From Colwellia psychrerythraea 34H (lineage in GTDB: Bacteria; Pseudomonadota; Gammaproteobacteria; Enterobacterales; Alteromonadaceae): 64,000 bases of DNA. Positions 36,348 to 59,651 of this stretch are shown here, piece after piece. How positions within the stretch are numbered: the first letter of the stretch is position 1; every line of letters starts with the position of its first letter. Made by a program: the position numbers and the translations under genes. The DNA is taken from positions 1,798,001 through 1,862,000 of the forward strand of contig NC_003910.7 in the NCBI RefSeq assembly GCF_000012325.1, in the 5' to 3' direction. The notes below the pieces were generated by a model, which made no database searches, was not told the DNA's origin, and worked only from the letters and a program-made list of their open reading frames with translations.

Positions 36348-36372
36348 AAAAATATCCTTTGAAAGTGATGTG

Positions 36373-36788: not shown

Positions 36789-37228
36789 TACAGCCCTAGC
36801 GTACTTGTTGGTTATTTTAAAACTGGGTATAGAATATAGGTAGGATGAAATGGAGGTAGATACGTAATTTTTTATGAATAATGCAATCCTAATAAATAAA
36901 AACAAATTTTAATAATAGTTTGAATACCATAGGTTTTTAGGTAACTATACGTTCATAGGTATAGGAAAATAAAAATTAAGTTTTAGGTTAATACATGATG
37001 TGTTCTATTACAGCCCTAACGCACTTGTTGGTGATTTTTAAAGCTGTTTGTAGAATATAGAAAGGATGAAATTGAGATAGATACGTATTTTATTATTAAT
37101 AATGCAATACGAATAAATACATAATAAAAATTTAAATAATTGTCTGAATATTATAGGTTTTTACGTAACTATACGTTCATATATATAGGGAAATAAAACT
37201 CAAGTTTTATATTAATACATGAAGTCTA
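36789..37228 (+). repeat. 220-bp tandem duplication of the sigma-gene promoter region
   Basis: Two direct copies, 36789-37008 and 37009-37228, begin with TACAGCCCTA and end with TTAATACATGA followed by the sigma start. Conserved blocks include AGGATGAAAT, TAGATACGTA, AATAATGCAAT and AACTATACGTTCATA. The second copy carries the true ATG of the sigma gene at 37219. The first copy keeps a relic start (ATGATG) that reads into only 19 codons. This region must hold the promoter of the left arm, perhaps autoregulated by the sigma factor. Confidence 0.85.
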
Positions 37229-37797
37229 CTATTAATGAAAAAGCACCAGTAACAGAGTTAATTGTTGAATGGAAGAAAGGCAGTAGTACTTCATTCAATG
37301 AATTATTCGAAATCTGTTATCAGCATTTTAAACATGAAGTTAGAAAACAAAAATTAAAAAAAACAAGTAATATTAAGCAATTAGATTTTTGTATTCAAAC
37401 AACTACTTCAATTGTTCATGACGCTTATCTAAAATTATCCGCTCATAGAGAACAAACAGTCTGCAATCGTAAAGATTTATATGTATTAATTTCTCAAGTC
37501 GTTAAATCTATTCTTTACGATCAGTATCGAAAAGCCGCTTCACAAAAAAGAAATTCAAGTAACAATTTACCACCTGAAAATCTTGAAGGAGCATCTTCAG
37601 AATTATTAGCAAAATTAGTATTAGCTGATAAGTCCTTATCAAAAGAAAAATCGCGCTGTAATAACGTCTTAAATCTTAGTCTGTTTGCTGCATTACCGGT
37701 AGAAGAAATAGCATCCTTATTAAATATATCTGTTCGTACTGTTCATAATGATTTGAACTTTGCGAAAGCCTGGTATTTAGATGAATTGAGCGCTTAG
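37219..37797 (+). CDS. ECF-type sigma factor, left arm
   Basis: A 192-residue RNA polymerase sigma factor of the ECF type often encoded with Ser/Thr kinases (Sig-70_X6/ECF43-like). The region 2 segment is about residues 20-110 (VVKSILYDQYRKAASQKR), and region 4 near 150-190 ends in a helix-turn-helix (VEEIASLLNISVRTVHNDLNF). No anti-sigma gene is adjacent. Instead a kinase starts 6 bases after the stop, as for Vibrio EcfP/PknT, where phosphorylation of region 2 activates the sigma factor. It likely controls the left-arm operon; promoter targets are unknown. A homologue stands at 59058. Confidence 0.87.
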   Translation: MKSTINEKAPVTELIVEWKKGSSTSFNELFEICYQHFKHEVRKQKLKKTSNIKQLDFCIQTTTSIVHDAYLKLSAHREQTVCNRKDLYVLISQVVKSILYDQYRKAASQKRNSSNNLPPENLEGASSELLAKLVLADKSLSKEKSRCNNVLNLSLFAALPVEEIASLLNISVRTVHNDLNFAKAWYLDELSA

Positions 37798-37803
37798 GCT
37801 ATT

Positions 37804-38487
37804 ATGAACGACTTATATGCATTATTTCAAAAGCTTGCCCTTATTGAGAAACCTTTACAGTCAAACTGCTTTAGTCAACTCGAGAATGAATCTCCTAAAA
37901 AAGCCCAACAGTTAGCACAATTATTAAAGCAACGGAATGTGTCAACAGGCGTTTTGATTGAAAAAATATTTTCTCCTTTAACCTTTTTAGACAAGCCAGA
38001 ACTGAGGTTAGGTAGGATAATTGATAATAAATACAAAATCGTTGAGCTAATTGGTCAAGGTGGTATGAGTGATGTGTATAAAGCCATAAGGTGTGATGGG
38101 TTAATAGAACATATCGTAGCGGTTAAATATTTTTCGCTTGCCGACACCTTTGAAACAGCCTTACAAATGATAAAAAAAGAAGCACAAATATTGGCTCAAC
38201 TAGACCATCATTACATCGCTAGCTTCATAGATATTGGTTATGACGATAATGGCGAACCTAATATCATGATGGAATATGTGCAAGGTCAAACGCTTTTCGC
38301 ATTTTTAAAAACAAAACCTGATGAGACGGTTTTATCTCAGGTTTATGCCACATTAGACGAGGCGAAAGGGTACGTAGTAAAACAAGGCGTAACTCATGGC
38401 GATATCAGTTTAAACAACGTATTAGTCGATAAAAATGGCAATGCCAATATTATTGATTTTGATATAGCTCAGTATAAAACTCAGTAA
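37804..38487 (+). CDS. Minimal Hanks-type Ser/Thr kinase, left arm
   Basis: A 227-residue kinase. Residues about 1-70 are an N-terminal helical part. The kinase has a glycine loop GQGGMSDVYKA, the ATP lysine in VAVKYF, the catalytic loop HGDISLNN (HRD replaced by HGD) and DFD in place of DFG. The protein ends about 8 residues after DFD, so the activation segment and most of the C-lobe are missing. Bud32/WaaP-type small kinases have a similar HGD and short end. Both kinases in the window share this architecture, so it is not a truncation. It probably phosphorylates the adjacent sigma factor (inference). Confidence 0.83.
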   Translation: MNDLYALFQKLALIEKPLQSNCFSQLENESPKKAQQLAQLLKQRNVSTGVLIEKIFSPLTFLDKPELRLGRIIDNKYKIVELIGQGGMSDVYKAIRCDGLIEHIVAVKYFSLADTFETALQMIKKEAQILAQLDHHYIASFIDIGYDDNGEPNIMMEYVQGQTLFAFLKTKPDETVLSQVYATLDEAKGYVVKQGVTHGDISLNNVLVDKNGNANIIDFDIAQYKTQ

Positions 38488-38528
38488 TAAAATTAATTTA
38501 TTCTAATAATTAATAGATAGGTACCTGT

Positions 38529-41500
38529 ATGATTAGTGAAATGTTAGTTAGAACATTTTTTGATAATAATTCTCTTAAATGTTCAACCTCCGCTTTAGAT
38601 TACGGTATTGCCAGCCAAAAAGACGTGTTTTTGCCTGTGGTTTTGGCTTATATAAAGTTTGCATTAAAAGACACCTCGTTTGAAAATTCTTGCTTAGTCT
38701 GTACGTTATCAAAAACAACAGAATCATTGACCTACTTAAAAGTAGATAAATTCGACTTGTTAGATGAAAGACTTGCTCATCATGTACTTAAGGTATTGGG
38801 TGGCTATCAATCTTTACAATGGTTTGAAAGTCAATTGGATGGAGATATTGATATTACACTTGTTGTTGAATATTTTCGAGAACACTTAAAAATAGTACCT
38901 GAAGGTGAAGAGTTAAATGACGGGGCTTATTTAGATGAATTGTTTTCTGTGGTTTTATCAAAAAACATTGATAAAAATCGCTTAGTTAAAGATCTAGAAC
39001 AATTTATTGCTAATCGAGATGCTGAACTAAAGGAATCTGAACACAATATTGATGCACCATCCCCGGTAACAGAAAACACGATAAACGAGCAGCAGACAGC
39101 GTTTATACTTGAAAAAGATTATATCTCTTTAGATCGTAAGCTTAAAAATTTCTTCAATGAAATGACATTCATTGCTTGCGCGAAATACTTGTCTTCATCA
39201 CCAGAAGCTAAAATACAAGAAATTAATACCAATAATTTACCTACAATAGACACTGAAATATTGTTATCAGCCATCATAGGCACGCCAGAATTACTTAAGG
39301 TACTTGCTGACGAGTTTGATTGTCAGCCTTCTCAAATTGTTATGCCATCTGTCATTTATAAAAACCGTGAATTACTTAAAGATTCAGTAGGCACGCGTAC
39401 CCTGCAAGATAGTGCAAATAATACAAAAAGTTGGTATCAGCTTGCAGAAAAGTACACAACTAAACTTGATATAAAAACCGATATTAAAAACTGTTTAAGC
39501 ATAGCTTTTAATGAAAAAAAATTGAACCTACTCACATTTGTTAAAGCTTTATTAGATCTAAAAAGTGAGAGTATAGAGAGCTTATCACGCTCAAATAAGT
39601 TAGTTAATCACACAATAAAATCAATGTTTGTTCAACAAAATTTAACCGAGTATCTAAACAGTAAAATTACCGGTCAACAACAAGCGATAGAACATTTAGC
39701 TAACGGCTATTTAACCTCATGTATAAGCAAGGTAAATGGCCCACGCTTAATTTATACATTTGCAGGGCCATCAGGTGTAGGTAAAACCTTTTTAGCTAAT
39801 GTTTTCAGTGATTACTTAAATGAATGTGAGCATTCTGGCTATGCTATTAGTACATTCAATATGGAACAGTTTAATAATGAAAAAAATAGCGCAAGATTAT
39901 TTGGCTCTGGCTCTGAATACATAGATTCAGGCGTTGGTGTATTAACCGGCACGGTAAAAGCACAACCAAGGCATATCTTATTATTCGATGAAATAGAAAA
40001 AGCGCATTCAAATGTTATTCAATCGCTTCTTACACTATTAGATAGTGGCGTTGCTATTGACCAAACGCTTACTTTACCCGTTGATTTTACCCAATGTATT
40101 GTTATTTTTACCACTAACCTTGGCCAAGATGTCTTAGCTAAAAATGCACAAAATCATCAGGTAAATATATTTGATGTACTAAGAAATGCTGAAAACCCAG
40201 CGACCAAAACTAAATTATCAATTGAATTCATTAACCGTTTATCAAAAGGTTATTCAATTCCATTTTCCACTTTAAAAACAAACCATTTGATTTCGCTTGC
40301 TGAAAAAGCGTTGAATAATAAAAGTGAGAATATCGCAGGTGTACAATTTAGTTGGCCGACAAGTTTTTCTTCATTTTTGTTAAAGCGTTTATCCCCAGAA
40401 GTTACCGTAAGGCAATTAACAACGTGTGTAGCTAAACTTAAATCAGAAATTTTGACCAAGTCAGCTCCAAATGTAGGTGAGCATACAACAGCACTAAAAT
40501 ATATTATCAATGTTGAAGACAATGAAGAGTCGCTAGTAGCCCAAAGTATATTACTTTTTGATAATGACAATCGGCTGCAAAATGAATTGTCAATCTCACA
40601 TTCAGACAAGAATATTCATGTAATGAATAATTCTGACGAAATTGCGCAAATGTTAAAGCTTCATCGACCTGACGCTTTTTTAATTGATACTGAATCAGTT
40701 GATCATGCTGTTGAGTCGTTAAATGACATCATTAATAAAGTTCATGCTGTTAACTCTATTATTCCCTTGTTTTCATACCGAATTATCGGAGAGAGTAATA
40801 TTGACTCAGTACCTCGAGATCAAAACATAAGGGAGCACTTTGAACTAGCACTAAATCATTTAGATACTACTTTTTACGAAATGTTAGAAAGAATTAACTA
40901 TTATTTAACCACTGAAAAATCATTGTCTAGCATGTTAAGTAGAAACGAAAAACTAAACTACCAATGTAAAATAACAAATCAGCAGTTAGAAAACGATGAG
41001 CAAGAGCAAGTTGGTAAAATAGAAAACTTTGATGTTTCATTTCATCAATTGTCAGTTAATCAAGTTATTGAATCTAAAGATATACAAGAAACTAGCTTCT
41101 TTAATCAGAGTTTACCTACAGAAAAACTTGATGATGTTATTGGTTTGCAGCGAGCTAAAAATCGACTGTTAGATGTAATTGAATGGATGAAATTTCCTGA
41201 TAAGTTACAAAACTTCGACGTAAAAATACCAACAGGATTTTTATTTGCAGGTCCGCCGGGTACGGGAAAAACCTTTTTAGCAAAAGCTGTTGCTGGCGAA
41301 TGTGGCTTACCTTTTTTCAGTGTTTCTGCGTCTGAACTTTCATCAACAATAATTGGAGGTTCATCTGAAAAAATAATGGCGTTATTTTCAGTTGCTAGAA
41401 AATATGCACCATCAATAGTTTTTATTGATGAGATTGACGCAATAGCTTCACAAAGATCAGAAGACAGTCAAGGTAACTCACGAGAACGTAATGCAATAGT

Positions 41501-42434
41501 AAATACACTGTTAACTGAAATGGATGGTTTTTCATCTTCTGAATCACCTGTCTTTGTAATGGCGGCAACCAATTACCCACAATTATTAGACAAAGCCATT
41601 TTGCGACCAGGGCGCTTTGACGAAACGATTTTTTGTGATTTACCCAACAGTGAAGCGCGCACCATATTTTTTGAAAAATTCGCCCAAAAACAGAACCTGC
41701 AATGGCAACAATCAGACTTAACCGCGCTTGTATCATCTTCGCAAGGTATGTCGTCGGCTGAAATAGACCAAGTATTGCGAGAAGCCATATATCAAGCCGT
41801 AGGTACCGAGAAACCGTTAACCATTGAGCATATTAAGCAAACCATAGTAAGAGTTGTATATGGCTCTCCGTCTGAAAATATTAAATTAGGTAAAGAAGAA
41901 AAACGCCGAACAGCTTTTCACGAAGCCGCGCATTTGCTCACTTATAAACTGCTATTTCCGAATCAAATAATTGATTTTGCAACCATAGAACCAAGAAACC
42001 AATCACTCGGTTTTGTCGCTACGCGTGCTTCTGAAGAATACGAAAGCTATTCGAAAACCCGAGTAATGAATAAATTACAAGTTTTACTTGCTGGCCGTGT
42101 GGCAGAAAAGCTTTGCACTAATAATGCTGATGAAATTAGCACGGGCGCATCAAACGATATTGAAAAAGCGACACAACTTGCCATGCATGCTATTTACGAT
42201 GGCGGTATAGAAGAAAGTGTAGGCCCCGTAAATGTGGGCATATTAACCAAATTTGAAGAAAGCGAGTTGCTAGCAAAGGCACAAAAAGCTGTTCAGCAAT
42301 GGTTAATTACAGCAGAGCAAAGTGTAGAAAAATTATTAAATGATAATTGCCACCAACTTGAGTTAGTTGCTAATACATTATTAGAGAAAGAATCTCTGTT
42401 GAGTGACGAAATTAATACACTATTTATTCAGTAG
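38529..42434 (+). CDS. Giant Clp-AAA / receiver-like / FtsH-type AAA / M41 metalloprotease fusion, copy 1
   Basis: A 1301-residue soluble protein with no membrane helix. Residues about 1-370 are unrecognised. A ClpA/B-type AAA_2 module follows, with Walker A GPSGVGKT near 412 and Walker B LLFDEIEKAH near 486. Residues about 670-790 look like a degenerate receiver (LLFDNDNRL; PDAFLIDTES). An FtsH-type AAA has Walker A GPPGTGKT near 907 and SRH NYPQLLDKAILRPGRFDE. The M41 peptidase has zinc motif HEAAH near 1131 and third ligand Asp in GASNDIEKA. Ordinary FtsH is membrane-bound and lacks the Clp part. It is probably an ATP-dependent protease of conflict or stress signalling. It follows the kinase by 41 bases. 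Confidence 0.85.
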   Translation: MISEMLVRTFFDNNSLKCSTSALDYGIASQKDVFLPVVLAYIKFALKDTSFENSCLVCTLSKTTESLTYLKVDKFDLLDERLAHHVLKVLGGYQSLQWFESQLDGDIDITLVVEYFREHLKIVPEGEELNDGAYLDELFSVVLSKNIDKNRLVKDLEQFIANRDAELKESEHNIDAPSPVTENTINEQQTAFILEKDYISLDRKLKNFFNEMTFIACAKYLSSSPEAKIQEINTNNLPTIDTEILLSAIIGTPELLKVLADEFDCQPSQIVMPSVIYKNRELLKDSVGTRTLQDSANNTKSWYQLAEKYTTKLDIKTDIKNCLSIAFNEKKLNLLTFVKALLDLKSESIESLSRSNKLVNHTIKSMFVQQNLTEYLNSKITGQQQAIEHLANGYLTSCISKVNGPRLIYTFAGPSGVGKTFLANVFSDYLNECEHSGYAISTFNMEQFNNEKNSARLFGSGSEYIDSGVGVLTGTVKAQPRHILLFDEIEKAHSNVIQSLLTLLDSGVAIDQTLTLPVDFTQCIVIFTTNLGQDVLAKNAQNHQVNIFDVLRNAENPATKTKLSIEFINRLSKGYSIPFSTLKTNHLISLAEKALNNKSENIAGVQFSWPTSFSSFLLKRLSPEVTVRQLTTCVAKLKSEILTKSAPNVGEHTTALKYIINVEDNEESLVAQSILLFDNDNRLQNELSISHSDKNIHVMNNSDEIAQMLKLHRPDAFLIDTESVDHAVESLNDIINKVHAVNSIIPLFSYRIIGESNIDSVPRDQNIREHFELALNHLDTTFYEMLERINYYLTTEKSLSSMLSRNEKLNYQCKITNQQLENDEQEQVGKIENFDVSFHQLSVNQVIESKDIQETSFFNQSLPTEKLDDVIGLQRAKNRLLDVIEWMKFPDKLQNFDVKIPTGFLFAGPPGTGKTFLAKAVAGECGLPFFSVSASELSSTIIGGSSEKIMALFSVARKYAPSIVFIDEIDAIASQRSEDSQGNSRERNAIVNTLLTEMDGFSSSESPVFVMAATNYPQLLDKAILRPGRFDETIFCDLPNSEARTIFFEKFAQKQNLQWQQSDLTALVSSSQGMSSAEIDQVLREAIYQAVGTEKPLTIEHIKQTIVRVVYGSPSENIKLGKEEKRRTAFHEAAHLLTYKLLFPNQIIDFATIEPRNQSLGFVATRASEEYESYSKTRVMNKLQVLLAGRVAEKLCTNNADEISTGASNDIEKATQLAMHAIYDGGIEESVGPVNVGILTKFEESELLAKAQKAVQQWLITAEQSVEKLLNDNCHQLELVANTLLEKESLLSDEINTLFIQ

Positions 42435-45461: not shown

Positions 45462-45629
45462 ATGTTTAACTCAAAAACGTTTAGATTATTTATAAGCTCA
45501 ACTTTTAGTGACTTTAAAAGAGAAAGGGAGATACTACAAAGTAACGTCTTCCCGCATATAAAAGAATATGCTGCTCAGAATGTTTCTCCTTTCATAGTAG
45601 GTATGTTTCAATTAAAAATCTATATGTAA
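45462..45629 (+). pseudogene. Truncated DUF4062 gene fragment
   Basis: The 55-residue frame begins NSKTFRLFISSTFSDFKRERE and matches the N-terminus of the STAND protein at 50427 (REIRVFISSTFNDMNEEREY). After AAQNV it jumps to SPFIVGM, which corresponds to PPFFIGM about 45 residues further in the intact protein, so there is an internal deletion. It then stops. It marks a lost STAND gene next to protease copy 1. Confidence 0.8.
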
Positions 45630-45804: not shown

Positions 45805-46299
45805 ATGGAAAAGCGTTTTGAGTCTTTGCTTTGGAGTAGCAGATTACTTCTACTTTTTGGTGTTGTTTGTTGTGTGATCACAGCGGCAACTTTAATCTTA
45901 TTAGGTTGTGTCGAGGTGTTTCACTTATTACAAGGAATGTTCTCCTACCTAATTACTCATAGTTCAGATGTTTCCCGAGATAATCTAGTACTCATGGTGA
46001 TCGAGATCCTTGATACATTCTTACTTTCTTCTATCCTCTTTATCTTTGCCTTTGGTTTGTATGAACTATTTATCAGTTCTATCGAAGAGTCTAATAAACA
46101 CCAGTCAAAGGCCTTTCAAATTAGTAGTATTGATGAGCTAAAAGCAAAATTGGGTAAGGTTATTGTGATGATTTTAGTCATAAAGCTATTCTCATATCTT
46201 GTTGAAATCAAGCCTCAAAATATTGTTGAAATTTTATATATGGCCATCATAGTTCTACTAGTATCAGTTAGCCTTTGGCTTGGGCACGCCAAAAAATAA
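45805..46299 (+). CDS. YqhA family (UPF0114) inner-membrane protein
   Basis: A 164-residue membrane protein with four hydrophobic helices. MEKRFESLLWSSRLLLLFGV, LDTFLLSSILFIFAFGLYELF and the ISSIDELKAKLGKVIVMILVIK stretch are hallmarks of UPF0114. The function of the family is unknown. It has its own promoter (see the entry at 45713) and ribosome site AAGGAT. The gene sits between the broken DUF4062 fragment and protease copy 2, so it looks like a passenger in the island rather than a part of the core system. Confidence 0.88.
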   Translation: MEKRFESLLWSSRLLLLFGVVCCVITAATLILLGCVEVFHLLQGMFSYLITHSSDVSRDNLVLMVIEILDTFLLSSILFIFAFGLYELFISSIEESNKHQSKAFQISSIDELKAKLGKVIVMILVIKLFSYLVEIKPQNIVEILYMAIIVLLVSVSLWLGHAKK

Positions 46300-49300: not shown

Positions 49301-50206
49301 TTTTCAATCGCTGAAGTTCCTGTATTTGTTATGGCAGCTACTAATCATCCGCAGTTGCTTGATAGCGCTATTACTCGTCCGGGTCGATTTGATGAAACAA
49401 TTTATTGTGACTTACCCAATAAAAATGCCCGACTGATCTTTTTTAAGCGTTTTGCCAGCAAACATAAACTGAATTGGCAAGAAACAGAGCTACAACAATT
49501 AGTTTCGTCTGCACAAGGCATGTCATCAGCTGAAATAGATCAAGTGCTGCGTGAGTCGATTTATCAAGCCGTAGGCGAGAACCAACAATTAACCACTGAG
49601 CATATTAAACAAACCATGATCCGCATTGTTTACGGCGCTCCTTCTGACCATATTTTCTTAGGGGCAGAAGAAAAACGTCGTACTGCCTATCATGAAGCAG
49701 CACATTTATTAGCGTACAAATTACTCTTTCCTAAGCAGCCGATAGATTTTATTACCATCGAACCAAGAAACCAGGCGCTAGGTTTTGTTGCCACCCGTGC
49801 CTCAGAAGAATATGAAAGTTATTCAAAACGTAGGGTGATGCATAAACTGCAAGTATTGTTAGCGGGTAGGGTGGCTGAAAAACTTTGTACAGGAGACTGT
49901 GAAGAAGTCAGTACCGGGGCTTCAAACGATATAGAAAAAGCGACTCAGCTTGCCATGCATGCTATTTATGAAGGGGGCATTGAACCAACCGTTGGGCCAG
50001 TTAATATTGCCATGCTCACTAAGTTTGAAGAAAGTGACTTATTAGCTAATGCTCAACAGGCCGTTAAACAATGGCTAGACCAATCTGAGCAGCAGGTAGA
50101 GCAATTGCTAAAAGATCATTATCAACAGCTAACATTGGTGGCTGAAACCTTACTTGATAAAGAGTCATTATTAGGTGAGGAGATTAACCTCATATTTGAT
50201 AGATAA
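46352..50206 (+). CDS. Giant Clp-AAA / receiver-like / FtsH-type AAA / M41 metalloprotease fusion, copy 2
   Basis: A 1284-residue paralogue of the protein at 38529 with the same order: unrecognised N-terminal 370 residues, AAA_2 with GPSGVGKT near 405, receiver-like segment (LVLFDNDTRL; PDAFLVDIES), FtsH-type AAA with GPPGTGKT near 890, and M41 peptidase with HEAAH near 1112 and GASNDIEKA. All catalytic residues are intact. Parts are nearly identical to copy 1 even at the DNA level (the first P-loop). Divergence is greatest in the N-terminal 370 residues, where a substrate or sensor region may lie. It starts 53 bases after YqhA and precedes the STAND gene. Confidence 0.85.
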   Translation: MNLKKLLNTFFEYREVQCSEMLMDNSMLEQSDVVLPLVLLYIKLAIKNTKLEGKVLKCQLVKQTESLCYLAAENIEFIDEYIALNIIEELGGYNAIEQIEDNRPCFVEIESLVTMFRKYLQNIPERQSLDDNAEFYQHYLQVFKLELDEDFIETQIEVAESYWYKDNLSVNGDIEGGEALKRQPFKLKEQYVRLKSSTQNFFEELSVLACSTYLSVHPSVEVQNIKVTDLPEIDCELVLSALIGTPSFLAALASQFQCQPSQVLMPDDVYHARKNLKHKAVTRSFSVNNDTTKNWYQITKSFASKLVLNENLKSCCDFSFIDNEFNDSLFIEALLKCKHHIIAELAVLNQCSNRISKAIKVEQQLKLDLNKQVIGQREAIESLTKGYLTSNIALSEGPRLIFTFAGPSGVGKTYLSSIFCDLLNQYEQSGYAFTTFNMEQYADKQDGMKLFGSGLQYNEANLGVLTSAVRAQPRQVLLFDEIEKAHSNVTQSLLSILDKGIAQDQTSQEFISFDQCIVIFTTNLGQEVLANNHQKHQLNIFDVLRHAENPATKTKLSVELINRLAKGYSVAFSPLQINHFVYLAEKELNKINDYQEMLDFKWPENFASFLLQSLAPEITARKLTSCLAKLKADILVKASSLITEDMSPISCAVSVTENMPNIDVKKLVLFDNDTRLQAQLAQSEFSLSASIVDSFEDIRAMLEQHRPDAFLVDIESIANGQLSLNEITEHVHCINSRIPIFSYRVVDIQIDNLKEQTLNHNVREHFELDLATFSLSFPAMLKRINYFLTMEKTLLRMTTRNETLEYQCRVEHNNKVLDVSFTNLSYRQVIQSKDLQETSLFNHSLPDNSLDDVIGLERAKRRLIEVVSWLKAPEKLLNFGIKIPTGFLFSGPPGTGKTLLAKAVAGECELPFFSVAASELSTPHSGGTTENIKQLFATARKYAPSIIFIDEIDAIAAQRTDNSDGSSRDKNLTVNALLTEMDGFSIAEVPVFVMAATNHPQLLDSAITRPGRFDETIYCDLPNKNARLIFFKRFASKHKLNWQETELQQLVSSAQGMSSAEIDQVLRESIYQAVGENQQLTTEHIKQTMIRIVYGAPSDHIFLGAEEKRRTAYHEAAHLLAYKLLFPKQPIDFITIEPRNQALGFVATRASEEYESYSKRRVMHKLQVLLAGRVAEKLCTGDCEEVSTGASNDIEKATQLAMHAIYEGGIEPTVGPVNIAMLTKFEESDLLANAQQAVKQWLDQSEQQVEQLLKDHYQQLTLVAETLLDKESLLGEEINLIFDR

Positions 50207-50426
50207 TGAGCATTCGACTTCCCTGATTTTCACATGATAAAGAATCTAAAAAATTTAATGAAAAGGGTAAACCAAAAACAAGTTCCGAAATTAAGAAAAA
50301 AAGAAACGCTATTAATAGAGTTAGCAAAATAAGCCATGTTAGAAAATTCAAATTGGAGCTACTTTGAATCGCTCAGTGACTAACAACATAAAAAATAACT
50401 AGAAATTTGTGATAAGGATATTGAAA
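50207..50426. other. Gap with a possible coding relic
   Basis: A frame beginning near 50231 reads a lysine-rich stretch (NEKGKPKTSSEIKKKRNAIN) with no start codon. A 32-codon ORF at 50234-50332 in another frame has no ribosome site. Neither is called a gene. Confidence 0.3.
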
Positions 50427-53400
50427 ATGGTTAAAGAAGTTAATAGCAATCGTGAAATTAGAGTATTTATATCTTCAACGTTCAATGACATGAATGAAGA
50501 AAGGGAATATTTAATTAAAAATGTATTTCCTCAAATAAAAGATGAATGTTTAAAGCGAAACGTTGGTTTCACCGAAATTGACTTAAGATGGGGAATAACG
50601 GAAGAAGAGTCGAAAGTCGGTCAGGCAGTGAATATTTGCCTTGAAGAAATTGAACGGTGTAAAAAGTATCCACCTTTTTTCATCGGGATGTTAGGTGAAC
50701 GTTACGGCTGGGTTCCAGAGCAAGAAGATTTAGAACCCTTACTTTCAAATAAAGAACAACAGAACATTTCTAATGTATTAGGTAATAAAAATATTAGCGT
50801 TACTGAAATGGAGTTTCGTTATGGGTTATTACTAAGTGAACAAAGCAAGCTACAAACTCTTTTATATTTTCGTTCACCAGAATTAACTCAAAGTCTTTTT
50901 CTAAGATCACCTGATTTGAATAAAGCACTATTTTATGACGACAGTGGCGACTTATTACAGAAATTCAAACAAGAGTTATTTGAGACCAAAAAAGACAGTG
51001 TTGTTATAGATGGTTACCAGTCTGTCGAAGAGTTTGGAAACTCGGTAAAACAGCAGCTACTTAAAGCACTAGACGATAGGTTCCCTAATACTGAGCTCGT
51101 TGAAGAATCAATAGCTCGTAATAATCAGGTTTTTGCATATCAAAAGCTTAATAACTTCGTTCCACGACAGCTAGAAAGAGCCAAGGTGTTAACACATTGC
51201 AAAAACAGGCTAGATGAGGAAGAGCTTCGTTTATGTGTGGTTCAAGGAGAGTCAGGAACGGGTAAAAGTACATTAATGGCCGATCTAGTTAGATACCTAC
51301 CACAGCAAATATCAGACGCATTAGTTTTTGAGCATTATTTGGGTAATGACAATTGCATAAACTTGACACAATGGAGAAAAAATCTTCTTGTTGAATTATC
51401 CTCTCACCTAAATGTGGAGAATGATACTAAAGAGGGCTATTCAAATGAAGAGCTTTGGTTTTACCTGTCTACAAAGTTAAACGAAGTTTCATACAGTCGA
51501 GATGAAGCGCCTATTATTCTGATTCTTGATGCTGTAAATCAATTAGACGATCCCCAAGAGGCAATAAAAATAATACAGGGGTTAAAATTTTCAAAAAATA
51601 TCATTTTGATCATAAGCGCTACACTAGAGTTAGCGTTCGACGATACAAGTTTTGAGGTTTTTCAATGTGGAAAGTTATCTCTAGAAGAAAAAGTCGGCAT
51701 CATAAAAAATTATTCGACTAACTATAGAAAGTATCATTCTGCAGATAATTATGAGCAAATAGTAAACTCTGATGCTACTGATTTACCTTTGTATTTAAAT
51801 ATAATTCTCGAAGAGTTAAGGTTAAGGTCTAGTCATCATCGACTAGAGCTAGATATTGCAAATATCCTCGCTCATAAAGAAGTCCAGTCGCTATTTCAAC
51901 ATATATTGCAGGCGCTTGATGGAGAGTTTTCGGACGATAAACATCCCAATATTATTTCTAATTTAATGGCTTTATTAGCAGCCTCTCATAACGGATTAGA
52001 TGAAACAGTAATAGGTGCTTTACTGGCTGATAAAAGTGACGTTGCAAACAGCCATAGTAAATTACACCAAATTTCGCGTCACTATTTAAGTCGAGTTTTA
52101 AGCAGTGTAAGACCTTATTTATTCCGCTCTTTAGGTAAGGAAAAAATAATGCACAACGCACTTATTAGCGCTTCTTTATCAATGGTTGATGAAATGAAAG
52201 TTCGACAGACACTGATTGATTTTTGTTCATCAAATAGATCAGAAGATGTTACAGAGCGAATTTTTCAAAAGCTGCGGTTAATAGAGCTGAAGAAAAATGA
52301 TGAATTAGATATTTTTGAGCTCTTTGGCAATGATGTGACTGAGATCTCAAACCTTATCAAATGTTATCAACATAGCACTGCTGTTTTTAAAGAGCTATTA
52401 ACGGCTTTTGATAAAGACTCTAACGGGCATGCTGATTCATCAAAATATTTTATTCAAAACGTTCGCTTTGAAGAGTTAATGACAGACATTCTACCAACAG
52501 CTTTTAAATCTATGATAGATTATATTGCCTACAATAGAATGACTTGGATAGCTACAATGCTCACTCGGCGACTACTCGCTGAGCTATCAAAGGTATCAGA
52601 TACTTCTGCTGCTTTAATGTTTGAATATCAGTTGATATTTGTAGAAAATGAACTTTTATTTGGCGACATTCAAAATGCTGTTCAAGTAGCTAATTTTTTA
52701 TTGGAGCGAGTTAATCAGTTACCTGATTCTCAGCGCCTTATGGAAAATAAATTATATACGCTTGCTGCTTCAATAAATACAAAACAGGAAAGGTACGAGC
52801 AATCGTACCTTTTGTGCATTAAAGCTATTGCTTCTATAAGAAGTCTTAATGGCCAGGACATAGAAGAAGAAAATGCTACTTTACAATTGGCTATTGCCAT
52901 ATTCAAAATAATACAATCTAAGCAATCAAGGCCTAGAACAACTATTTGGGGACTTGAGGATCTTAAGCTCACCACATTATGTGGCACAGAACTATCTGAC
53001 AGTGAGTTATCCATTCATTTATTTAATGTAGCTATTGAGAAGTTATTGAAATCTTATGGTGAAAATCATGCGTACTTTATTCGGCCTCTATTTTACCTAG
53101 CGTGTCTACATATAGCATTAAATGATGATAAGAAAGCCGGTGAGTATCTGAACAAAAGCTGGAAAATAATGCTAGCGCAGCTTCCTCCTGGCAATCAGAC
53201 CTTTATTGAGCTTATTGACTTGTTCACCTCCGTAGCTGCAAGTTCTAATTTATATCCAGCATTTAAATCTCAATGTCATAAATTATTGGAAGATTGGCAA
53301 CAGCAACTTAGAAGTGACCATCCAACTATTGTCAAAGTTAAGACGCTACTAAGTAACTCTGAGACGAAAGATAAACGGTATATTATTGAGCAGTTCCCTA

Positions 53401-54152
53401 AAGACTTTGAATTTCTAAAAGCTCTTCATTATGCTGGTAAACATATTCAAGATACGCTTATGTACGATTTAGGTACATCGAATGATAATAAGCTTTCTAC
53501 TTGGCTTTATACTGGAAAAGAGTGTATATCGCCGGCCCACTTAGGGTTCAGATTGGGAACAAAACTTTATTTTGTGTTATTGGATCTTGTTGATACAGAG
53601 ACTCCCTATGGCAACTATCAACATTTTAGTGGGTTTTGTGAAAAAAACGGCTTAATCCCTTGTTTGATGAAAATGAAAAAAGAAGCTGAACACTACATAC
53701 CTATATATAGTGGCAGTGGATTAAGAAATGAAATTTCAATGGAGATAGTTGATCGATGTATCGAAGAGCCTTTGCCTTCTTCTGTTATGACTGCTTGGGA
53801 AAATTATGACTTTGCAATTCAAGTCGTGCGAAGTTATCTTGAACAGAAAAATTACAACATTTTATCTTATTCCCACGATCCTAACATAATACCATCTATT
53901 AACTTTTTAAATGAGGGGAATACTGCCGTCGTGAAAGTGACTGCAACTTTTCAATCTGAAAATGGCCAACAAGAGTCGATTAGTTGCGGTTACTTTTCTG
54001 AAAATGACGTATTGTCGACTCTATCTGGCGGTGTATTTGAAGCCAAAGTACACGTTTACAATGGCAACGATAAAAAACTCCCTCCAATTAGAGGTGAAGC
54101 ATTAGGTATAGATTTTGAAGGGATAGAGCCGCTAGTTATAGATGCTCAGTAG
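50427..54152 (+). CDS. DUF4062-NTPase (STAND/NACHT-like) protein
   Basis: A 1241-residue soluble protein. Residues about 1-110 are DUF4062 (REIRVFISSTFNDM; TEIDLRWGITEEES; FIGMLGERYGW), which resembles a TIR-like or Rossmann domain and is used in NPHP3- and TEP1-type proteins. A STAND-type NTPase has Walker A GESGTGKST near residue 273 and Walker B ILILDAVNQLDD near 365. The second half is helical and TPR-like (residues about 700-1000), with an unrecognised C-terminal domain (about 1050-1241). It is the expected shape of a ligand-triggered oligomerising immune sensor. The ATG at 50427 follows AAGGAT. It follows protease copy 2 by 220 bases. Confidence 0.83.
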   Translation: MVKEVNSNREIRVFISSTFNDMNEEREYLIKNVFPQIKDECLKRNVGFTEIDLRWGITEEESKVGQAVNICLEEIERCKKYPPFFIGMLGERYGWVPEQEDLEPLLSNKEQQNISNVLGNKNISVTEMEFRYGLLLSEQSKLQTLLYFRSPELTQSLFLRSPDLNKALFYDDSGDLLQKFKQELFETKKDSVVIDGYQSVEEFGNSVKQQLLKALDDRFPNTELVEESIARNNQVFAYQKLNNFVPRQLERAKVLTHCKNRLDEEELRLCVVQGESGTGKSTLMADLVRYLPQQISDALVFEHYLGNDNCINLTQWRKNLLVELSSHLNVENDTKEGYSNEELWFYLSTKLNEVSYSRDEAPIILILDAVNQLDDPQEAIKIIQGLKFSKNIILIISATLELAFDDTSFEVFQCGKLSLEEKVGIIKNYSTNYRKYHSADNYEQIVNSDATDLPLYLNIILEELRLRSSHHRLELDIANILAHKEVQSLFQHILQALDGEFSDDKHPNIISNLMALLAASHNGLDETVIGALLADKSDVANSHSKLHQISRHYLSRVLSSVRPYLFRSLGKEKIMHNALISASLSMVDEMKVRQTLIDFCSSNRSEDVTERIFQKLRLIELKKNDELDIFELFGNDVTEISNLIKCYQHSTAVFKELLTAFDKDSNGHADSSKYFIQNVRFEELMTDILPTAFKSMIDYIAYNRMTWIATMLTRRLLAELSKVSDTSAALMFEYQLIFVENELLFGDIQNAVQVANFLLERVNQLPDSQRLMENKLYTLAASINTKQERYEQSYLLCIKAIASIRSLNGQDIEEENATLQLAIAIFKIIQSKQSRPRTTIWGLEDLKLTTLCGTELSDSELSIHLFNVAIEKLLKSYGENHAYFIRPLFYLACLHIALNDDKKAGEYLNKSWKIMLAQLPPGNQTFIELIDLFTSVAASSNLYPAFKSQCHKLLEDWQQQLRSDHPTIVKVKTLLSNSETKDKRYIIEQFPKDFEFLKALHYAGKHIQDTLMYDLGTSNDNKLSTWLYTGKECISPAHLGFRLGTKLYFVLLDLVDTETPYGNYQHFSGFCEKNGLIPCLMKMKKEAEHYIPIYSGSGLRNEISMEIVDRCIEEPLPSSVMTAWENYDFAIQVVRSYLEQKNYNILSYSHDPNIIPSINFLNEGNTAVVKVTATFQSENGQQESISCGYFSENDVLSTLSGGVFEAKVHVYNGNDKKLPPIRGEALGIDFEGIEPLVIDAQ

Positions 54153-54224: not shown

Positions 54225-54830
54225 GTAAACCCCCGGCTCTGCCGGGGAGACTCACATAGGTTCTACCTATACCGCGGTATAGGTATCCTTTAATCTCGAC
54301 CAAGAGAAAGAAGGAAAACCTATGCGAGATTATAGGAGTTTGTCCCATACAGGATGGGATTGTAAATACCATATTGTATTTATACCTACAAAAAGACGCA
54401 AAATGATATTTGGTTCAATCAGAAAACATTTAGGGGAAGTGTTCCATGAGTTGGCTCGTCAAAAATGCGTGATTATTGAGGAGGGACACTTAATGCCAGA
54501 TCATGTTCATATGTGCTTGAGTATTCCACCGAAGTTAGCAGTTTCCAATGTTGTTGGTTTTATAAAGGGAAAAAGTGCGATCTCAATAGCGAGAACATTT
54601 AAAGGAAAGCAAAGAAACTTTACTGGTGAAGCATTTTGGGCTAGAGGATATTTTGTATCCACGGTTGGGCTTGATGAAAATATGGTGAGGGAATATATCC
54701 GTAATCAAGAAAAACAGGACGTAGAGCGGGATCAGCTGAAGTTGGGGGGTTAATGCGCCTCGGGCGCTTACTTTAAGCCTTCTAGGCTGTCATCTAATAA
54801 GCCTCCGGCTCTGCCGGAGGTCATTTAACT
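54225..54830 (+). mobile_element. IS200/IS605-family element (tnpA only)
   Basis: A compact single-gene element. The left end carries a hairpin at 54231-54247 (CCCCGGC, TCT, GCCGGGG) and a 22-bp perfect palindrome at 54264-54285 centred on CCGCGG. The right end carries a hairpin at 54802-54820 (CCTCCGGC, TCT, GCCGGAGG) and a smaller one at 54755-54767. Subterminal hairpins and no inverted repeats at the ends are the IS200 plan. Exact borders are estimated. It lies between the two convergent arms of the island. Confidence 0.85.
54322..54753 (+). CDS. tnpA: IS200-type Y1 transposase TnpA
   Basis: A 143-residue HUH/Y1 transposase that moves single-stranded DNA. The HUH pair is His61 and His63 (MPDHVHMCLS) and the catalytic tyrosine is Tyr125 (VREYIRNQ). 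The WARGYFVSTVG segment is also standard. The gene looks intact. The leader contains the palindrome noted for the element, which in other IS200 copies blocks translation. The full-length frame and intact terminal hairpins suggest it may be recently active. Confidence 0.93.
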   Translation: MRDYRSLSHTGWDCKYHIVFIPTKRRKMIFGSIRKHLGEVFHELARQKCVIIEEGHLMPDHVHMCLSIPPKLAVSNVVGFIKGKSAISIARTFKGKQRNFTGEAFWARGYFVSTVGLDENMVREYIRNQEKQDVERDQLKLGG

Positions 54831-54997: not shown

Positions 54998-57178
54998 TTA
55001 TTTTTTATTTTTTAAATCACTTAATGACTCAAAGTGATTCCACTCTGCATGCTCTTGCATTGCTTCTTTTGCTAATTCAATTAGCAGATTTTCAATCGTT
55101 TCATTGTCCATATCTTCTGACGGTTGTTCTAAACCTATTTCAATTTTAGATAAAGCATCTTTGTATGCTGAATATAAGTCAGAACAATTACTTGGGTCAG
55201 TGTTTTTAATTTTCTTATTTAAAAATTTTAGCTCTTCAAGTACTTGATTATACTTTGAGCAAGGCTGAATATTTGAGTTTGTAATCTCTTGCGTTATAAG
55301 TTGATCAGCTCTTTTGTATAATTGAAGTAAATTTAAATAACCGTTGGCTGTATGTCCGTAGTTTGCGAGTTCATTCCATAAGGCAGTGACAGCTGTTAGT
55401 AGTAATGAAAATTGAATGCCAAACATTACCCAGTTTGATGTTGATAAATCGCCATTTTTAATAGTGTCATTTTGCAATAAAATAATTTGTGCTGCCCACA
55501 TGCTAATAACAGATAAACAAGTAATCCAAAACAAAATGGTAGTCCACTTTGTTAGCGTTACTTCAGCTCTGGCAGGTCGCTTATAAAAAAATGTTTTTAA
55601 TTTTGTCTTTATATTATTGGGATTAACTGAGCTTAATAACTTACTTATGGTGCTGCTATTAGGCTGTTCAGTATTTTTTGATAGGTCTAGCCTCGCTTGT
55701 AAAAAGCCAATTTGTCCATTTAACCAGTGTTTACTTACACTGTTTAGCTGTTGTTGTATTGGATTTTTCCACCAGTGTAATTCTGTTACTTCGATTGCAT
55801 GATTTAAAATAGGTAACTTTTTTCGGTATCTTCTTGGTATGAGTGGAGAACTAGTAGGTGCGATGTTCGCAAGATTCAAAAAGCCTCGCAGCCTCATGCT
55901 TTCAGCTATTCCTCTTGCGATTTGAAAGTGCCATTTGGATTGTTTTTTATTCGCAGCTCTCTTTATCAATAGACCGGTAATTATGGCAATAATAATCATT
56001 GAATTTAATATCAAGCCCAATGGCTTATCTAAAAAAGCAGATGTTAGCTCGTAACTAACAAAGCCTGATAATGCAAAAAATACAAACCAAAGTGTGATGC
56101 TTCTATAGTTAGTTTGGAGGTTTTCAGCCGTTTTATCTGCGCTTTTAAATGTGGAAAATGATTCACCAAGACTAATTTGTTGTACTTCGAGTTCTTCTTC
56201 ATCTTTAGGATTAACAGATGAAATATCAAAACTAGAGAGTTCTTGGTTATTATATTTGTTTAGTTGTAGGATTAATTCAACAAACTCCTCGGTCAAGAAT
56301 GTTTGATTGAGATTTGTTGATGACGAAATGTTCCCTTGAGCTATATTATGAGAAACATATAATTTACAGTCTTGGTGTTCAGTAGGAAAAACAGCTTTAC
56401 CCATTGACTTGTCAACACGCGTTAATTCAATATTATCAGCAGTTTTTTGCGTAATTTCCTTTCTTATTACAGGTATGTGGTGAACAACGCCTCCTAGTTG
56501 CCCATCAAAGTCGCTAAAATGGGATAATGCCTTATTTTCAGCGCCCTCTGGCCACTTAGCGTTAACTCCACATTTTATTTTAACGACATCACCTGTGCCG
56601 CCCAAACCATCAGACTTTTCATCATCCCACAGAGCTAATAAGACATTACTATATTTAGCAATAAATACACCTAAATTTAAATATAATGAGTTTCTCCATT
56701 CGCCGTAATTCATATCGGTTAATGCAAAATTATATTGTTCTTGCGTTAAACCGTGTCTGAGTAATATTTGATTGTTTTTATAGTCATCTAAAGTTTTTTC
56801 AAACTCTTTAACTGTAAATAGGCTATCTTCTGAAAAATCTTTAGTAAAAGCACTTTGTTCCATAGGTAGACATGGAATGATTCTAAAAGATTCTTTCGGC
56901 CATTCTTTATCATGCCAGAGTTCTTCTGCTGCCTGAATGGCTAGTAAATCCGCGCCATCAGCCATGCCTGACATGATCCAAATAGGAGTATTATTGGAAT
57001 CATTCTTTGGATCATTAAACTGATCTCGCCAATGTGTTAACGCGGCCTTTATTTGTTCTTTAATAGGCTCAAGGTTGACATGTGAAGTTTTATTGCTTTT
57101 AAGGCATAGCAGGTCTCTGTGCCCTGTTATACCAATAATGAAGGGTAATTTATTACTGTAATTTTTATTCAGTGTCAT
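54998..57178 (-). CDS. SLOG-like nucleotide-sensor protein with SLATT-like membrane region
   Basis: A 726-residue protein. Residues 1-300 look like a SLOG-family Rossmann domain: IGITGHRDLLCL, IWIMSGMADGADLLAIQAAEEL and FRIIPCLPM, with a glycine-rich nucleotide site. Two hydrophobic helices lie near 360-410 and two near 560-620, surrounded by helical segments. SLOG proteins paired with SLATT-type membrane domains are predicted ligand-gated pore effectors of CBASS-like or related systems. This call is by motif and layout, so the SLATT assignment is tentative. It is the last gene of the right arm, and convergent with the STAND gene across the IS. Confidence 0.7.
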   Translation of the reverse strand: MTLNKNYSNKLPFIIGITGHRDLLCLKSNKTSHVNLEPIKEQIKAALTHWRDQFNDPKNDSNNTPIWIMSGMADGADLLAIQAAEELWHDKEWPKESFRIIPCLPMEQSAFTKDFSEDSLFTVKEFEKTLDDYKNNQILLRHGLTQEQYNFALTDMNYGEWRNSLYLNLGVFIAKYSNVLLALWDDEKSDGLGGTGDVVKIKCGVNAKWPEGAENKALSHFSDFDGQLGGVVHHIPVIRKEITQKTADNIELTRVDKSMGKAVFPTEHQDCKLYVSHNIAQGNISSSTNLNQTFLTEEFVELILQLNKYNNQELSSFDISSVNPKDEEELEVQQISLGESFSTFKSADKTAENLQTNYRSITLWFVFFALSGFVSYELTSAFLDKPLGLILNSMIIIAIITGLLIKRAANKKQSKWHFQIARGIAESMRLRGFLNLANIAPTSSPLIPRRYRKKLPILNHAIEVTELHWWKNPIQQQLNSVSKHWLNGQIGFLQARLDLSKNTEQPNSSTISKLLSSVNPNNIKTKLKTFFYKRPARAEVTLTKWTTILFWITCLSVISMWAAQIILLQNDTIKNGDLSTSNWVMFGIQFSLLLTAVTALWNELANYGHTANGYLNLLQLYKRADQLITQEITNSNIQPCSKYNQVLEELKFLNKKIKNTDPSNCSDLYSAYKDALSKIEIGLEQPSEDMDNETIENLLIELAKEAMQEHAEWNHFESLSDLKNKK

Positions 57179-57579: not shown

Positions 57580-58341
57580 CTACGGGTTAAGCTGTTGCCA
57601 AAGCCTCAGCTTATCAATTTTTTGTTGTTGGGTTACTTTATTCCACAGTTGATGGTAGTTAAATAAAACACGGTCAATACTACCAACAATTTGTTCTCTT
57701 TCTATAGTGCCAAAATAACGTGAGTCGTGGCTCAGGTTACGGTTGTCTCCAATCATGAAGTACTTACCAATTGGAACAGTGAATTGAGGACTATTTGTGA
57801 CTAAGCTACTTTTAATATAATCAGGTAAGTCACTAGTAAAAATAATATTATAATTTTTCGTTTTTGAAGCAGATATATTGTTAGTTTCTTGGTATGCACT
57901 AAATGAATACTTACTTGAATAGGGCAGTTCTTTGTTTTTGATAACGTCCATTGTCGTGGCTTTCAAGGGGAGTATGCTGCCATTGATATAAAAATTATTG
58001 TCAATAATTTGTACTGTGTCACCGGGTATTGCCATTACTCGTTTAACAAATAATGACCCTTTATTGTCAAAAGCGACAATATCACCACGTTGTGGATTAT
58101 TTATCGGGAATATATTTTTACCCCAATAAGGAATTTTAATATCAAAAGCGAGTTTGTTTACTAAGACATAATCACCTTCAATTAGGTTGGGGTTCATTGA
58201 CGCAGACGGAATGTAATTCCAATTAATAAACGTACTTCGAATAAAAAATAACGCTAATAAAAACCAAATAAAGCCCATGTTACTGTGATAGAAACGTACC
58301 AGTAAATTTATAGCGTTATTTGGCGTCAAATTAACATTCAT
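57580..58341 (-). CDS. lepB: Signal peptidase I paralogue
   Basis: A 253-residue type I signal peptidase. One N-terminal membrane helix (about 23-40) is followed by the catalytic Ser48 in IPSASMNPNL, Lys100 in GSLFVKRVMAIPGD, and the box E sequence IGDNRNLSHDSRYFG. It is shorter than housekeeping LepB (324) and lacks the second helix. Its start overlaps the kinase stop as TAATG, so it is translationally coupled to the kinase. A signal peptidase in a sigma-kinase operon is unusual; it may process a secreted or membrane partner of the island. The housekeeping lep gene is not in this window. Confidence 0.88.
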   Translation of the reverse strand: MNVNLTPNNAINLLVRFYHSNMGFIWFLLALFFIRSTFINWNYIPSASMNPNLIEGDYVLVNKLAFDIKIPYWGKNIFPINNPQRGDIVAFDNKGSLFVKRVMAIPGDTVQIIDNNFYINGSILPLKATTMDVIKNKELPYSSKYSFSAYQETNNISASKTKNYNIIFTSDLPDYIKSSLVTNSPQFTVPIGKYFMIGDNRNLSHDSRYFGTIEREQIVGSIDRVLFNYHQLWNKVTQQQKIDKLRLWQQLNP

Positions 58342-59054
58342 TATACGCATAAAGGTTGTGTGTCATTCGTCGTTGAATCGCTAAAATTAGCGATATCAAA
58401 ATCGACGATGTTGGCGTTACCATTAATATCTACCAGTACATTGTTTTTACTTAAATCACCATGTTCAACACCTTTGCTTTTTGCATGTTCAATGGCCGCT
58501 TTTAAGCTAGTGTTAACCTGTTCTTTGGCTTCCTCACTTGGCGAAGTATTAAGGAACTCATATAAAGTAATACCGTCAATGTATTCCATCATAATGTTAG
58601 GCTCTTGATGATTATCATGGCTAATATCTATAAAACTCGCAATGTGATGGTGGTCTAAATCAGCGAGTATTTGTGCCTCTTTTTTTATCATCTTTAGTGC
58701 TGTGTTGTTTGAGTCAGCCAAGGCAAAATATTTTACGGCTATGGTGTGGTTAATTAAGCCATCTGTTCTTTCCGCTAGGTAAACATCACTCATACCACCT
58801 TGTCCGAGCAGTTTTGTAATTTTATATTTGTTGTTTATTAAGCGTCCGATACGAATACTTGTATCTTCGTTATTAATGATTCCTAAATGTAAGTATTCGA
58901 GCATCTCGTTAACTGAAGTACCACGGTAATCTAATAAGCGGGATAACTCGGTTGCTACTGTTGGATTTTGTTGGTGCAGTTGTGTCATTTTCTGCGCTAA
59001 TAATTCTTTTGGCAAACTAGAATATTCTGTAAATAATTTATAAAGCAAAGACAT
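58341..59054 (-). CDS. Minimal Hanks-type Ser/Thr kinase, right arm
   Basis: A 237-residue homologue of the kinase at 37804 with the same order: helical N-terminus, GQGGMSDVYLA loop, AVKYF lysine, HGDLSKNN catalytic loop and DFD. It again ends about 15 residues after DFD. The N-terminal about 75 residues are less alike than the kinase part. It starts 3 bases after the sigma gene and is coupled to the signal peptidase, so it sits between the regulator and an effector-like set. Confidence 0.83.
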   Translation of the reverse strand: MSLLYKLFTEYSSLPKELLAQKMTQLHQQNPTVATELSRLLDYRGTSVNEMLEYLHLGIINNEDTSIRIGRLINNKYKITKLLGQGGMSDVYLAERTDGLINHTIAVKYFALADSNNTALKMIKKEAQILADLDHHHIASFIDISHDNHQEPNIMMEYIDGITLYEFLNTSPSEEAKEQVNTSLKAAIEHAKSKGVEHGDLSKNNVLVDINGNANIVDFDIANFSDSTTNDTQPLCV

Positions 59055-59057
59055 AGG

Positions 59058-59651
59058 TTAAAACCCGTTGAAGTGGCTATGATACCAAGCATGCGCAAAT
59101 TTGAGTTCATTTTGTACTGTACGCAGAGATATATTGTACATATCAGCAATTTTCTTTGCATTTAATCCAGCAAAAACATTGAGCTGAAGAAGTTCTGCTG
59201 CCCGGGGTTTCTCCTGTACCAGCGCATTATAAACGCGTTCCAAGTCACACATTGTTTCTGCAATATTACAGTCGTATTCAGGCTGTTTTTCTTCCTGAGG
59301 TAGGGTGTTTTTCTGCGCATTTTTACTGCGAGATTGATCCTTCATTATTGAATAAACAACCTTGCCAATAAGTCGATAAAAATCTGCTCTGTTATCAAGT
59401 TTTGCACTGGTCACTTTGCCTAACCGAGGATAGAGGTGATTGATAATATCAGTGGTTGAATCAATACAAACAGAGACTTGATTGACATTAGTTTGTTGGT
59501 TATTTAGGTTTTGAATTTTGCTCTTGCGTATTTGATGTCGAAACTGTTGGTAGCATTGAATAAACAATTCATCGTATGCAGTTTCATCGCCATTTTGCCA
59601 TTGAGTGAGTAGTTCAGTTACCGGCACGTCTGATAAATATTTTATGTCCAT
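59058..59651 (-). CDS. ECF-type sigma factor, right arm
   Basis: A 197-residue homologue of the sigma factor at 37219 (DVPVTELLTQWQNGDETAYDELF against APVTELIVEWKKGSSTSFNELF). The region 4 HTH is LNAKKIADMYNISLRTVQNELKF. Same operon plan, kinase directly downstream. It is divergent from the membrane protein gene at 59845, with a 193-base gap containing the promoters of both. No anti-sigma factor is adjacent. Confidence 0.85.
   Translation of the reverse strand: MDIKYLSDVPVTELLTQWQNGDETAYDELFIQCYQQFRHQIRKSKIQNLNNQQTNVNQVSVCIDSTTDIINHLYPRLGKVTSAKLDNRADFYRLIGKVVYSIMKDQSRSKNAQKNTLPQEEKQPEYDCNIAETMCDLERVYNALVQEKPRAAELLQLNVFAGLNAKKIADMYNISLRTVQNELKFAHAWYHSHFNGF

Follow-up and report, generated by a model that had tools for sequence, protein, structure and literature searches.

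We analysed a window of 64,000 nucleotides of Colwellia psychrerythraea 34H (positions 1798001-1862000 of the one-contig, 5.37 Mb genome) and found in it a gene island that is real, patchy and mobile-looking. Two arms, each led by the genes of an extracytoplasmic function (ECF) sigma factor and a mini-kinase, face inward and meet at an IS200-type transposase gene; both this layout and the gene content, as claimed by the original prediction, were confirmed by profile searches. The island encodes two proteases, CF1 and CF2, in which a Clp-type AAA ring, a receiver-like domain and an FtsH-type AAA ring with an M41 peptidase are fused in one chain, and judged by their sequences these belong to a rare, real family with intact active-site residues. 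They stand together with two NADase-type effectors and a SLOG protein, all of which resemble known immune parts as far as sequence can tell. Tentatively, we take the whole to be a modular, horizontally moving immune or cell-suicide island gated by sigma-factor phosphorylation, which is a plausible reading.

Gene content and layout

The plus arm has the order sig1, kin1, CF1, TIR, UPF0114, CF2 and DUF4062-STAND, and the minus arm has the order sig2, kin2, signal peptidase I, a membrane protein of 106 amino acids (aa) and SLOG. The features are as follows (TM, transmembrane segment).

37219..37797, plus strand: sig1, ECF43-like ECF sigma factor (TIGR02999, PF07638)
37804..38487, plus strand: kin1, soluble mini-kinase, 227 aa (PF00069), starting 6 bases past sig1
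38529..42434, plus strand: CF1, N domain, Clp-D2-type AAA, receiver-like domain, FtsH AAA and M41 peptidase, 1301 aa
42487..45327, plus strand: TIR protein with a long C-terminal part, 946 aa (PF13676, E 1.1e-14)
45471..45566, plus strand: decayed remnant of a second DUF4062 N-terminus (tblastn 56%, residues 14-45, E 3e-8)
45805..46299, plus strand: UPF0114 membrane protein, 164 aa (PF03350, E 1.6e-29)
46352..50206, plus strand: CF2, second Clp-D2, receiver-like and FtsH-M41 fusion, 1284 aa, 55% identical to CF1
50303..50395, plus strand: decayed C-terminal remnant of a second SLOG protein (tblastn 65%, residues 696-726, E 4e-9)
50409..54152, plus strand: DUF4062 (TIR-like), STAND NTPase and helical protein, 1247 aa (PF13271, PF13191, NPHP3_N)
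54322..54753, plus strand: IS200-type Y1 transposase at the junction of the arms (PF01797, E 3e-36)
54998..57178, minus strand: SLOG domain and transmembrane helical protein, 726 aa
57214..57534, minus strand: small membrane protein, 106 aa, with 2 TM by hydropathy and no Pfam match
57580..58350, minus strand: extra signal peptidase I (TIGR02227, 136.8 bits, cut-off 47)
58341..59054, minus strand: kin2, soluble mini-kinase, 237 aa (PF00069)
59058..59651, minus strand: sig2, ECF43-like ECF sigma factor (TIGR02999)

On the strand behind sig1, the gaps kin1-CF1, CF1-TIR and UPF0114-CF2 were 41-52 bases; two others were wider, at 477 bases (TIR-UPF0114) and 202 bases (CF2-STAND). The IS200-type transposase is probably a passenger. 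The G+C content ranged over 30-41% across the window in 2-kb steps. Scans of the window with Rfam (gathering threshold) and for tRNA gave no match, so no insertion site at a tRNA end was seen. Upstream of sig1 (36815-37225), there are two imperfect direct repeats of 84 and 103 bases, 84-85% identical and with a spacing of 221-224, which are possibly a duplicated promoter region.

The sigma-kinase pairs and the fusion proteases

Against TIGR02999, which we took as the marker of ECF43, sig1 scored 193.3 bits and sig2 211.4 bits (cut-off 126.15), and sig1 also matched PF07638 with an E value of 3.6e-20. Sig1 and sig2 were the only two proteins recovered when the genome was searched with sig1 at E 1e-3. 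The DAED position in region 2.2, read by eye, is QTTT in sig1 and DSTT in sig2, the latter retaining the first acid, and it is DSTT also in the sigma factor of another genome (G037), whose pair is akin to those of the window. In the relevant passages of PMC13147305 and PMC8999054, the ECF43 signature is given as QTTA/STTA, and phosphorylation of that threonine activates the sigma factor.

The kinase genes follow their sigma genes by 6 bases (arm 1) and 3 bases (arm 2). Matches to PF00069 covered positions 1-146 of 263 of the profile in kin1 (E 4.5e-22) and 1-153 in kin2 (E 7.2e-21). Both retain the HGD..NN and DFD motifs, and the catalytic Lys, Asp and Asn and the Mg-binding Asp are present (Lys and the helix-C Glu by eye). 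Hydropathy gave no TM in either, unlike the membrane receptor kinases PknT and PknS. Kin2 is 77% identical to the mini-kinase of G037, which stops just past the same DFD. Since kin1, kin2 and the G037 kinase share this end point, the short kinase is a form of its own and not a product of decay, and we rejected a reading of kin1 and kin2 as frameshift stumps. Among 35 other sigma neighbourhoods, 31 had a kinase-like neighbour of 445-983 aa; one of the remaining four (L082) is interrupted by a contig end, and no kinase was recognised in L078, L081 and L110.

CF1 and CF2 are the only proteins of the genome that match the fusion over its full length, and separate FtsH-like and Clp-like genes are found elsewhere in it. 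The fusion was present in 5 of 197 relatives (own genome counted, two of them divergent), in 1 of 369 genomes of the class (the own genome alone) and in 4 of 394 of the order (own counted). Among named relatives, CF1 is closest to a protein of Colwellia sp. BRX9-1, with 91% identity. The M41 zinc ligands (H, E, H, D) and both Walker sets are intact in all 23 close-type members, and the receiver acids D678, D680 and D720 are retained in 22 of them.

CF1 scored 362.2 bits against the FtsH equivalog TIGR01241, below its cut-off of 600, and lay under the cut-off of every NCBIfam model among the 25 of 42 matches listed. By hydropathy, it has no TM and no N-terminal membrane anchor, and CF2 has one weak hydrophobic stretch at 235-253. 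No IGF/IGL-like tripeptide of a ClpP loop was seen at 489-569 of CF1 or CF2, while a loose pattern of this type occurred in 2 of 23 aligned close-type rows. Residues 1-357 of CF1 had no Pfam match. The receiver-like domain may be of the (beta-alpha)5 type, with a strand-helix order in a predicted model; among the matches listed, PF00072 appeared below its cut-off in 2 of 5 divergent homologs (two of the other lists gave the best 25) and not in CF1. Taken alone, this piece had no sequence match in PDB or Pfam, and a fold search with residues 1-870 of CF1 gave, among the matches listed, Clp/Hsp104-type proteins and no receivers. A plasmid search with CF2 at E 1e-80 gave no match. Among viral contigs, the best 80 matches cover the Clp part (one starts earlier, at residue 293) and include no fusion.

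The TIR protein scored 38.9 bits against ThcB4 (cut-off 220), ThsB and ThsA models were likewise not reached, and the PADLOC match to ThsB is confined to residues 4-65; a homolog near a fusion in Alteromonas oceani (949 aa, 33% identity over 3-506) has TIR and Sel1 matches. In the DUF4062-STAND protein we identified PF13271 (E 5.8e-14; 52.5 bits, cut-off 24.7), PF13191 (E 1.3e-8) and NPHP3_N (E 1.4e-7) with a Walker A motif GESGTGKS; beyond DUF4062, Pfam gave STAND and weak helical matches only, and no portal-binding domain was recognised. The SLOG-membrane protein has a SLOG/DprA-like fold with GHR and GxAxGAD motifs, and its structural matches include the ADP-ribose-gated channel TRPM2. One of its homologs is named DUF1273 and another DUF4231, which we take to be SLATT. 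A UPF0114 homolog adjoins the fusion in L029 (Thalassotalea) and in L030 of the Colwellia genome G032, and signal peptidase homologs lie beside the fusion in L029 and, in partial form, next to the sigma-kinase genes in G037.

Recurrence, mobility and flanking genes

The contig scan gave 21 fusion loci, and G152 was added from the scan of relatives. Besides the window, eight loci are of the close type: L025 (Alteromonas), L026 (Shewanella), L027 and L028 (Pseudoalteromonas), L029, L030, L031 (Psychromonas) and G152; other close-type clusters, without neighbourhood DNA, fall outside this count. The stretches were 35-36 kb for G032 and G152, 10-24 kb for the other close-type loci and 7-20 kb for the 35 controls, which are sigma hits under 1e-25 in other genomes, with G037 tabulated apart.

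The predicted co-occurrence was found in these genomes. Relatives of the island TIR, DUF4062-STAND, SLOG, UPF0114, signal peptidase or 106-aa proteins were near the fusion in 5/8 close-type loci against 0/35 controls (Fisher p 5.8e-5, a guide only because the loci share ancestry). In L026, one of these five, the relative is a TIR fragment of 94 aa, and adding G037 (L076, with a signal-peptidase match) to the controls gives 1/36. A sigma-kinase pair was near the fusion in three of the eight (L026, G032 and G152), and the order sigma, kinase, fusion on one strand is common to the window and L026. These three pairs have one type of sigma factor, which differs from sig1 and sig2 and in G032 and G152 scores below the cut-off of TIGR02999. 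In the three genomes with a close-type fusion among the 197 relatives, all TIGR02999 hits under 1e-25 lie near it, at 0.7 and 8.9 kb (own genome), 7.2 kb (G032) and 10.6 kb (G152). In G152, a single strand encodes a fusion, DUF4062-STAND, a TrkA_N protein, SLOG, a sigma factor and a kinase. Alishewanella (L032) has a divergent fusion, 36% identical, whose neighbours are a TIR-NPHP3-TPR protein, a SLOG-like protein and one of TrkA_N/RyR-like type. As indirect evidence, the fusion and SLOG homolog clusters share longest contigs of equal size (153660, 11073 and 15380).

TrkA_N proteins of 628-662 aa occur near fusions in three genomes (L026 828-2714, L013 9981-11969 and L032 13581-15527), two of them with a weak, below-cut-off RyR match; the island proteins that were scanned gave no TrkA_N/RyR-type match. 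In Pseudidiomarina, a divergent fusion (L035 9740-18267) directly precedes a JetD_C gene and large open reading frames (ORFs); JetD_C alone was matched, and the set may be of the Wadjet type. In Psychromonas (L031 3860-9672), three genes lie past the fusion, the last with a Phage_integrase match, and the three may together form a recombinase set by which such islands move.

Nineteen genomes of the same genus have a close ortholog of the MaoC gene, and in seven of them 10-40 kb beside it were sampled. The DNA match to these seven ends at 34.55-34.90 kb of the window, just beyond the MaoC gene; in the sampled stretches no island DNA was seen, and relatives of island genes were found at 0/7 of the sites. 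Between L026 (5122-8904) and L013 (3731-7506) of G152, a block of 3.8 kb with sigma, kinase, metallophosphatase-like and membrane protein genes is 92% identical in DNA, which points to recent transfer, as one genome is Shewanella and the other appears to be of another family. The decayed second DUF4062 and SLOG copies and the IS200 element indicate gene turnover. The genes outside the two arms are:

34975..35253, minus strand: small membrane protein, 92 aa, TM2-like by eye, likely an outlying part of the island
36015-36380 and 36373-36744, minus strand: two small lipoprotein-like ORFs (call by eye), divergent from sig1
59845..60669, plus strand: mem274, membrane protein with 5 TM by hydropathy, divergent from sig2

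The 92-aa protein has no Pfam match, and its homologs (68-69% identity) lie near the fusion in L026 and L030, that is in 2/8 close-type, 0/35 control and 0/14 divergent loci. Mem274 is present in 3 of 39 genomes of the genus (own included). In G003, which was fetched for mem274 and has a single short DNA match (36.0-36.4 kb), lipoprotein-like, PEP-CTERM and mem274 genes occur together; in G037 mem274 and lipoprotein-like genes are again divergent from the sigma-kinase pair. From these shared flanks, the switch appears to move together with an envelope module. The cluster of G003 (L118 1009-15905) is flanked by AbiH- and ABC-three-component-like defence ORFs, as seen by eye. Between mem274 and an RTX gene, the interval 60670-61109 is apparently (by eye) a decayed copy of the lipoprotein ORF at 36015-36380; blastx gave no match at E 1e-2, and G037 DNA aligns there at 75%.

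Possible working and biological meaning

If the island works as an immune or cell-suicide device, each mini-kinase would phosphorylate the threonine that replaces an acidic core-binding residue of its partner sigma factor, which would then bind RNA polymerase and transcribe its own arm, by analogy with EcfP/PknT and EcfK/PknS. The plus arm would supply two soluble double-ring proteases and two NADase-type effectors, TIR and DUF4062-STAND, of which the latter awaits a trigger of its own. In the proteases, the Clp ring might pull a substrate, most likely a labile effector inhibitor or a foreign protein, through to the FtsH/M41 chamber, with a receiver-like and perhaps phosphorylatable hinge between the two motors. 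The SLOG-membrane protein of the minus arm might be gated by ADP-ribose-type products of the NADases, as are SLOG-ThsA and TM-macro ThsA in Thoeris, and the outcome would be cell suicide against phage. In its complete form, with the soluble kinase-sigma switch, NADase products opening a TRPM2-like SLOG-membrane protein and a phospho-gated Clp-receiver-FtsH protease destroying an effector inhibitor, this scheme is improbable.

Each part has known counterparts, here compared with the relevant passages of the published accounts. The ECF43 sigma-Hanks kinase pairs EcfP/PknT and EcfK/PknS (PMC13147305, PMC8999054) have in common a TIGR02999-type sigma factor, an adjacent kinase and a Thr for an acid in region 2.2, but the island kinases are soluble and truncated and their neighbours are of immune type rather than polymyxin-resistance or type VI secretion system (T6SS) genes. 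Among the Cap controllers of immune operons (PMC13373217), CapK/CapS is a kinase-substrate pair that sets the expression of the immune genes beside it; there a GHKL kinase, CapK, targets a repressor, whereas in the island a Hanks kinase would target a sigma factor. EACC2-caspase conflict neighbourhoods (PMC8195603) have an adjacent ECF sigma gene, proposed as transcription regulator; the relevant passages name a TPR protein, caspase, EACC2 and TRADD-N and no kinase partner, and FtsH and SLOG each have 0 occurrences in the text. Swarozyc NADases (PMC13174449) share the N-terminal DUF4062, which in the island is fused to a STAND NTPase and a long helical part. Thoeris of the SIR2-SLOG and TM-macro types (PMC11204291) likewise combines a TIR-type enzyme with a nucleotide-sensing SLOG-fold or membrane effector, but here the effector is SLOG with membrane helices and lies in the other arm. 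In FtsH ternary systems (PMC7159879), conflict genes likewise surround a double AAA+ protein that has an FtsH-type domain; that protein has two FtsH-type ATPase domains and vWA and MoxR partners, whereas the island has Clp-D2, receiver-like, FtsH and M41 parts, and no vWA or MoxR partner was among the matches listed for island proteins (the best 25 for CF1 and CF2). Compared with the D2 ring of ClpA/ClpB and with FtsH, CF1 is one chain with a receiver-like insert and no membrane anchor. The original prediction knew of no described system with this set, and we found no description of the gene set or of the fusion in the open-licence PMC literature, an absence that is weak in itself.

The overall interpretation of the original prediction stands in part: the island and the kinase-responsive Thr signature hold, but several results weigh against its control logic and its unity. 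Judged by profile coverage, kin1 and kin2 are without the activation segment and the remaining C-lobe. No shared promoter-like two-box motif was found upstream of six candidate genes (14/20 shuffles equalled the observed score). The FtsH pore aromatic (CF1 residues 936-946) is lost in 17 of the 23 close-type members, whereas the Clp pore aromatic is kept in all 23, which suggests that the first ring is the motor. Ten island proteins compared with PADLOC gave no match covering most of both protein and model. Because the pairs of L026, G032 and G152 share one sigma type, they represent few independent events. In five of the eight other close-type loci the fetched DNA shows no pair, and three of these five, L027, L028 and L031, also have no effector relative (contig ends are close by in L027 and L031). 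Among the 38 strong sigma hits elsewhere, only those of G032 and G152 are near a fusion; 35 have none on the DNA sampled and G037 stops at a contig edge, so the fusion and the sigma-kinase pair do not depend on each other. Divergent fusions had the partner set in 1/14 (L037 and L044 matched in the FtsH part only) and 0/2 cases. The control logic is the weak link, for which we have the sigma motif, the mechanism known from ECF43 and the tight gene spacing within one part of the arm, and sig1 and sig2 may transcribe the island genes.

It is a serious possibility that unrelated conflict modules, each with its own trigger, have gathered in one hot spot and that the sigma-kinase pairs serve only the neighbouring envelope genes. 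The decayed copies, the IS200 element, the variable gene order among loci, the fusions without a recognised partner (L027, L028) or beside a JetD-like gene (L035) and the lack of a nearby fusion at most strong sigma hits elsewhere all fit such a history, as does the position of sig1 and sig2, each divergent from envelope-type genes found beside such a pair in G037; the short one-strand gaps behind sig1 speak against it, the two wide ones aside, and so does the recurrence of the same kinds of partners across genera, even beside the divergent fusion of L032. It is unlikely that the island is an envelope-stress or anti-predator programme, in which the pair senses envelope damage or amoebae and the proteases, signal peptidase and membrane proteins serve repair or resistance, although characterised ECF43 pairs answer polymyxin or turn on an anti-amoeba T6SS (PMC8999054, PMC13147305). 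Signal peptidase, lipoprotein-like, PEP-CTERM and several membrane protein genes around the pairs would suit this role. The kinases, having no TM, have no outer sensor of their own, and proteins of the TIR, DUF4062-STAND and SLOG-membrane kinds are not known to act in repair. That these are merely housekeeping proteostasis genes of odd appearance is very improbable: FtsH, Clp and signal peptidase I do belong to families with housekeeping roles, but the genome has separate FtsH-like and Clp-like genes, and we rejected this reading on the rarity of the fusion.

How suicidal immune genes are kept off until needed is an open question, and the published answers include repressors and kinase-repressor pairs (PMC13373217). 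The fusion protease is a one-chain double-motor machine with a candidate regulatory domain. If the sigma factors do command the rest of the island, it would represent a novel means by which bacteria turn on their immunity, with a phospho-switched sigma factor as the master key.

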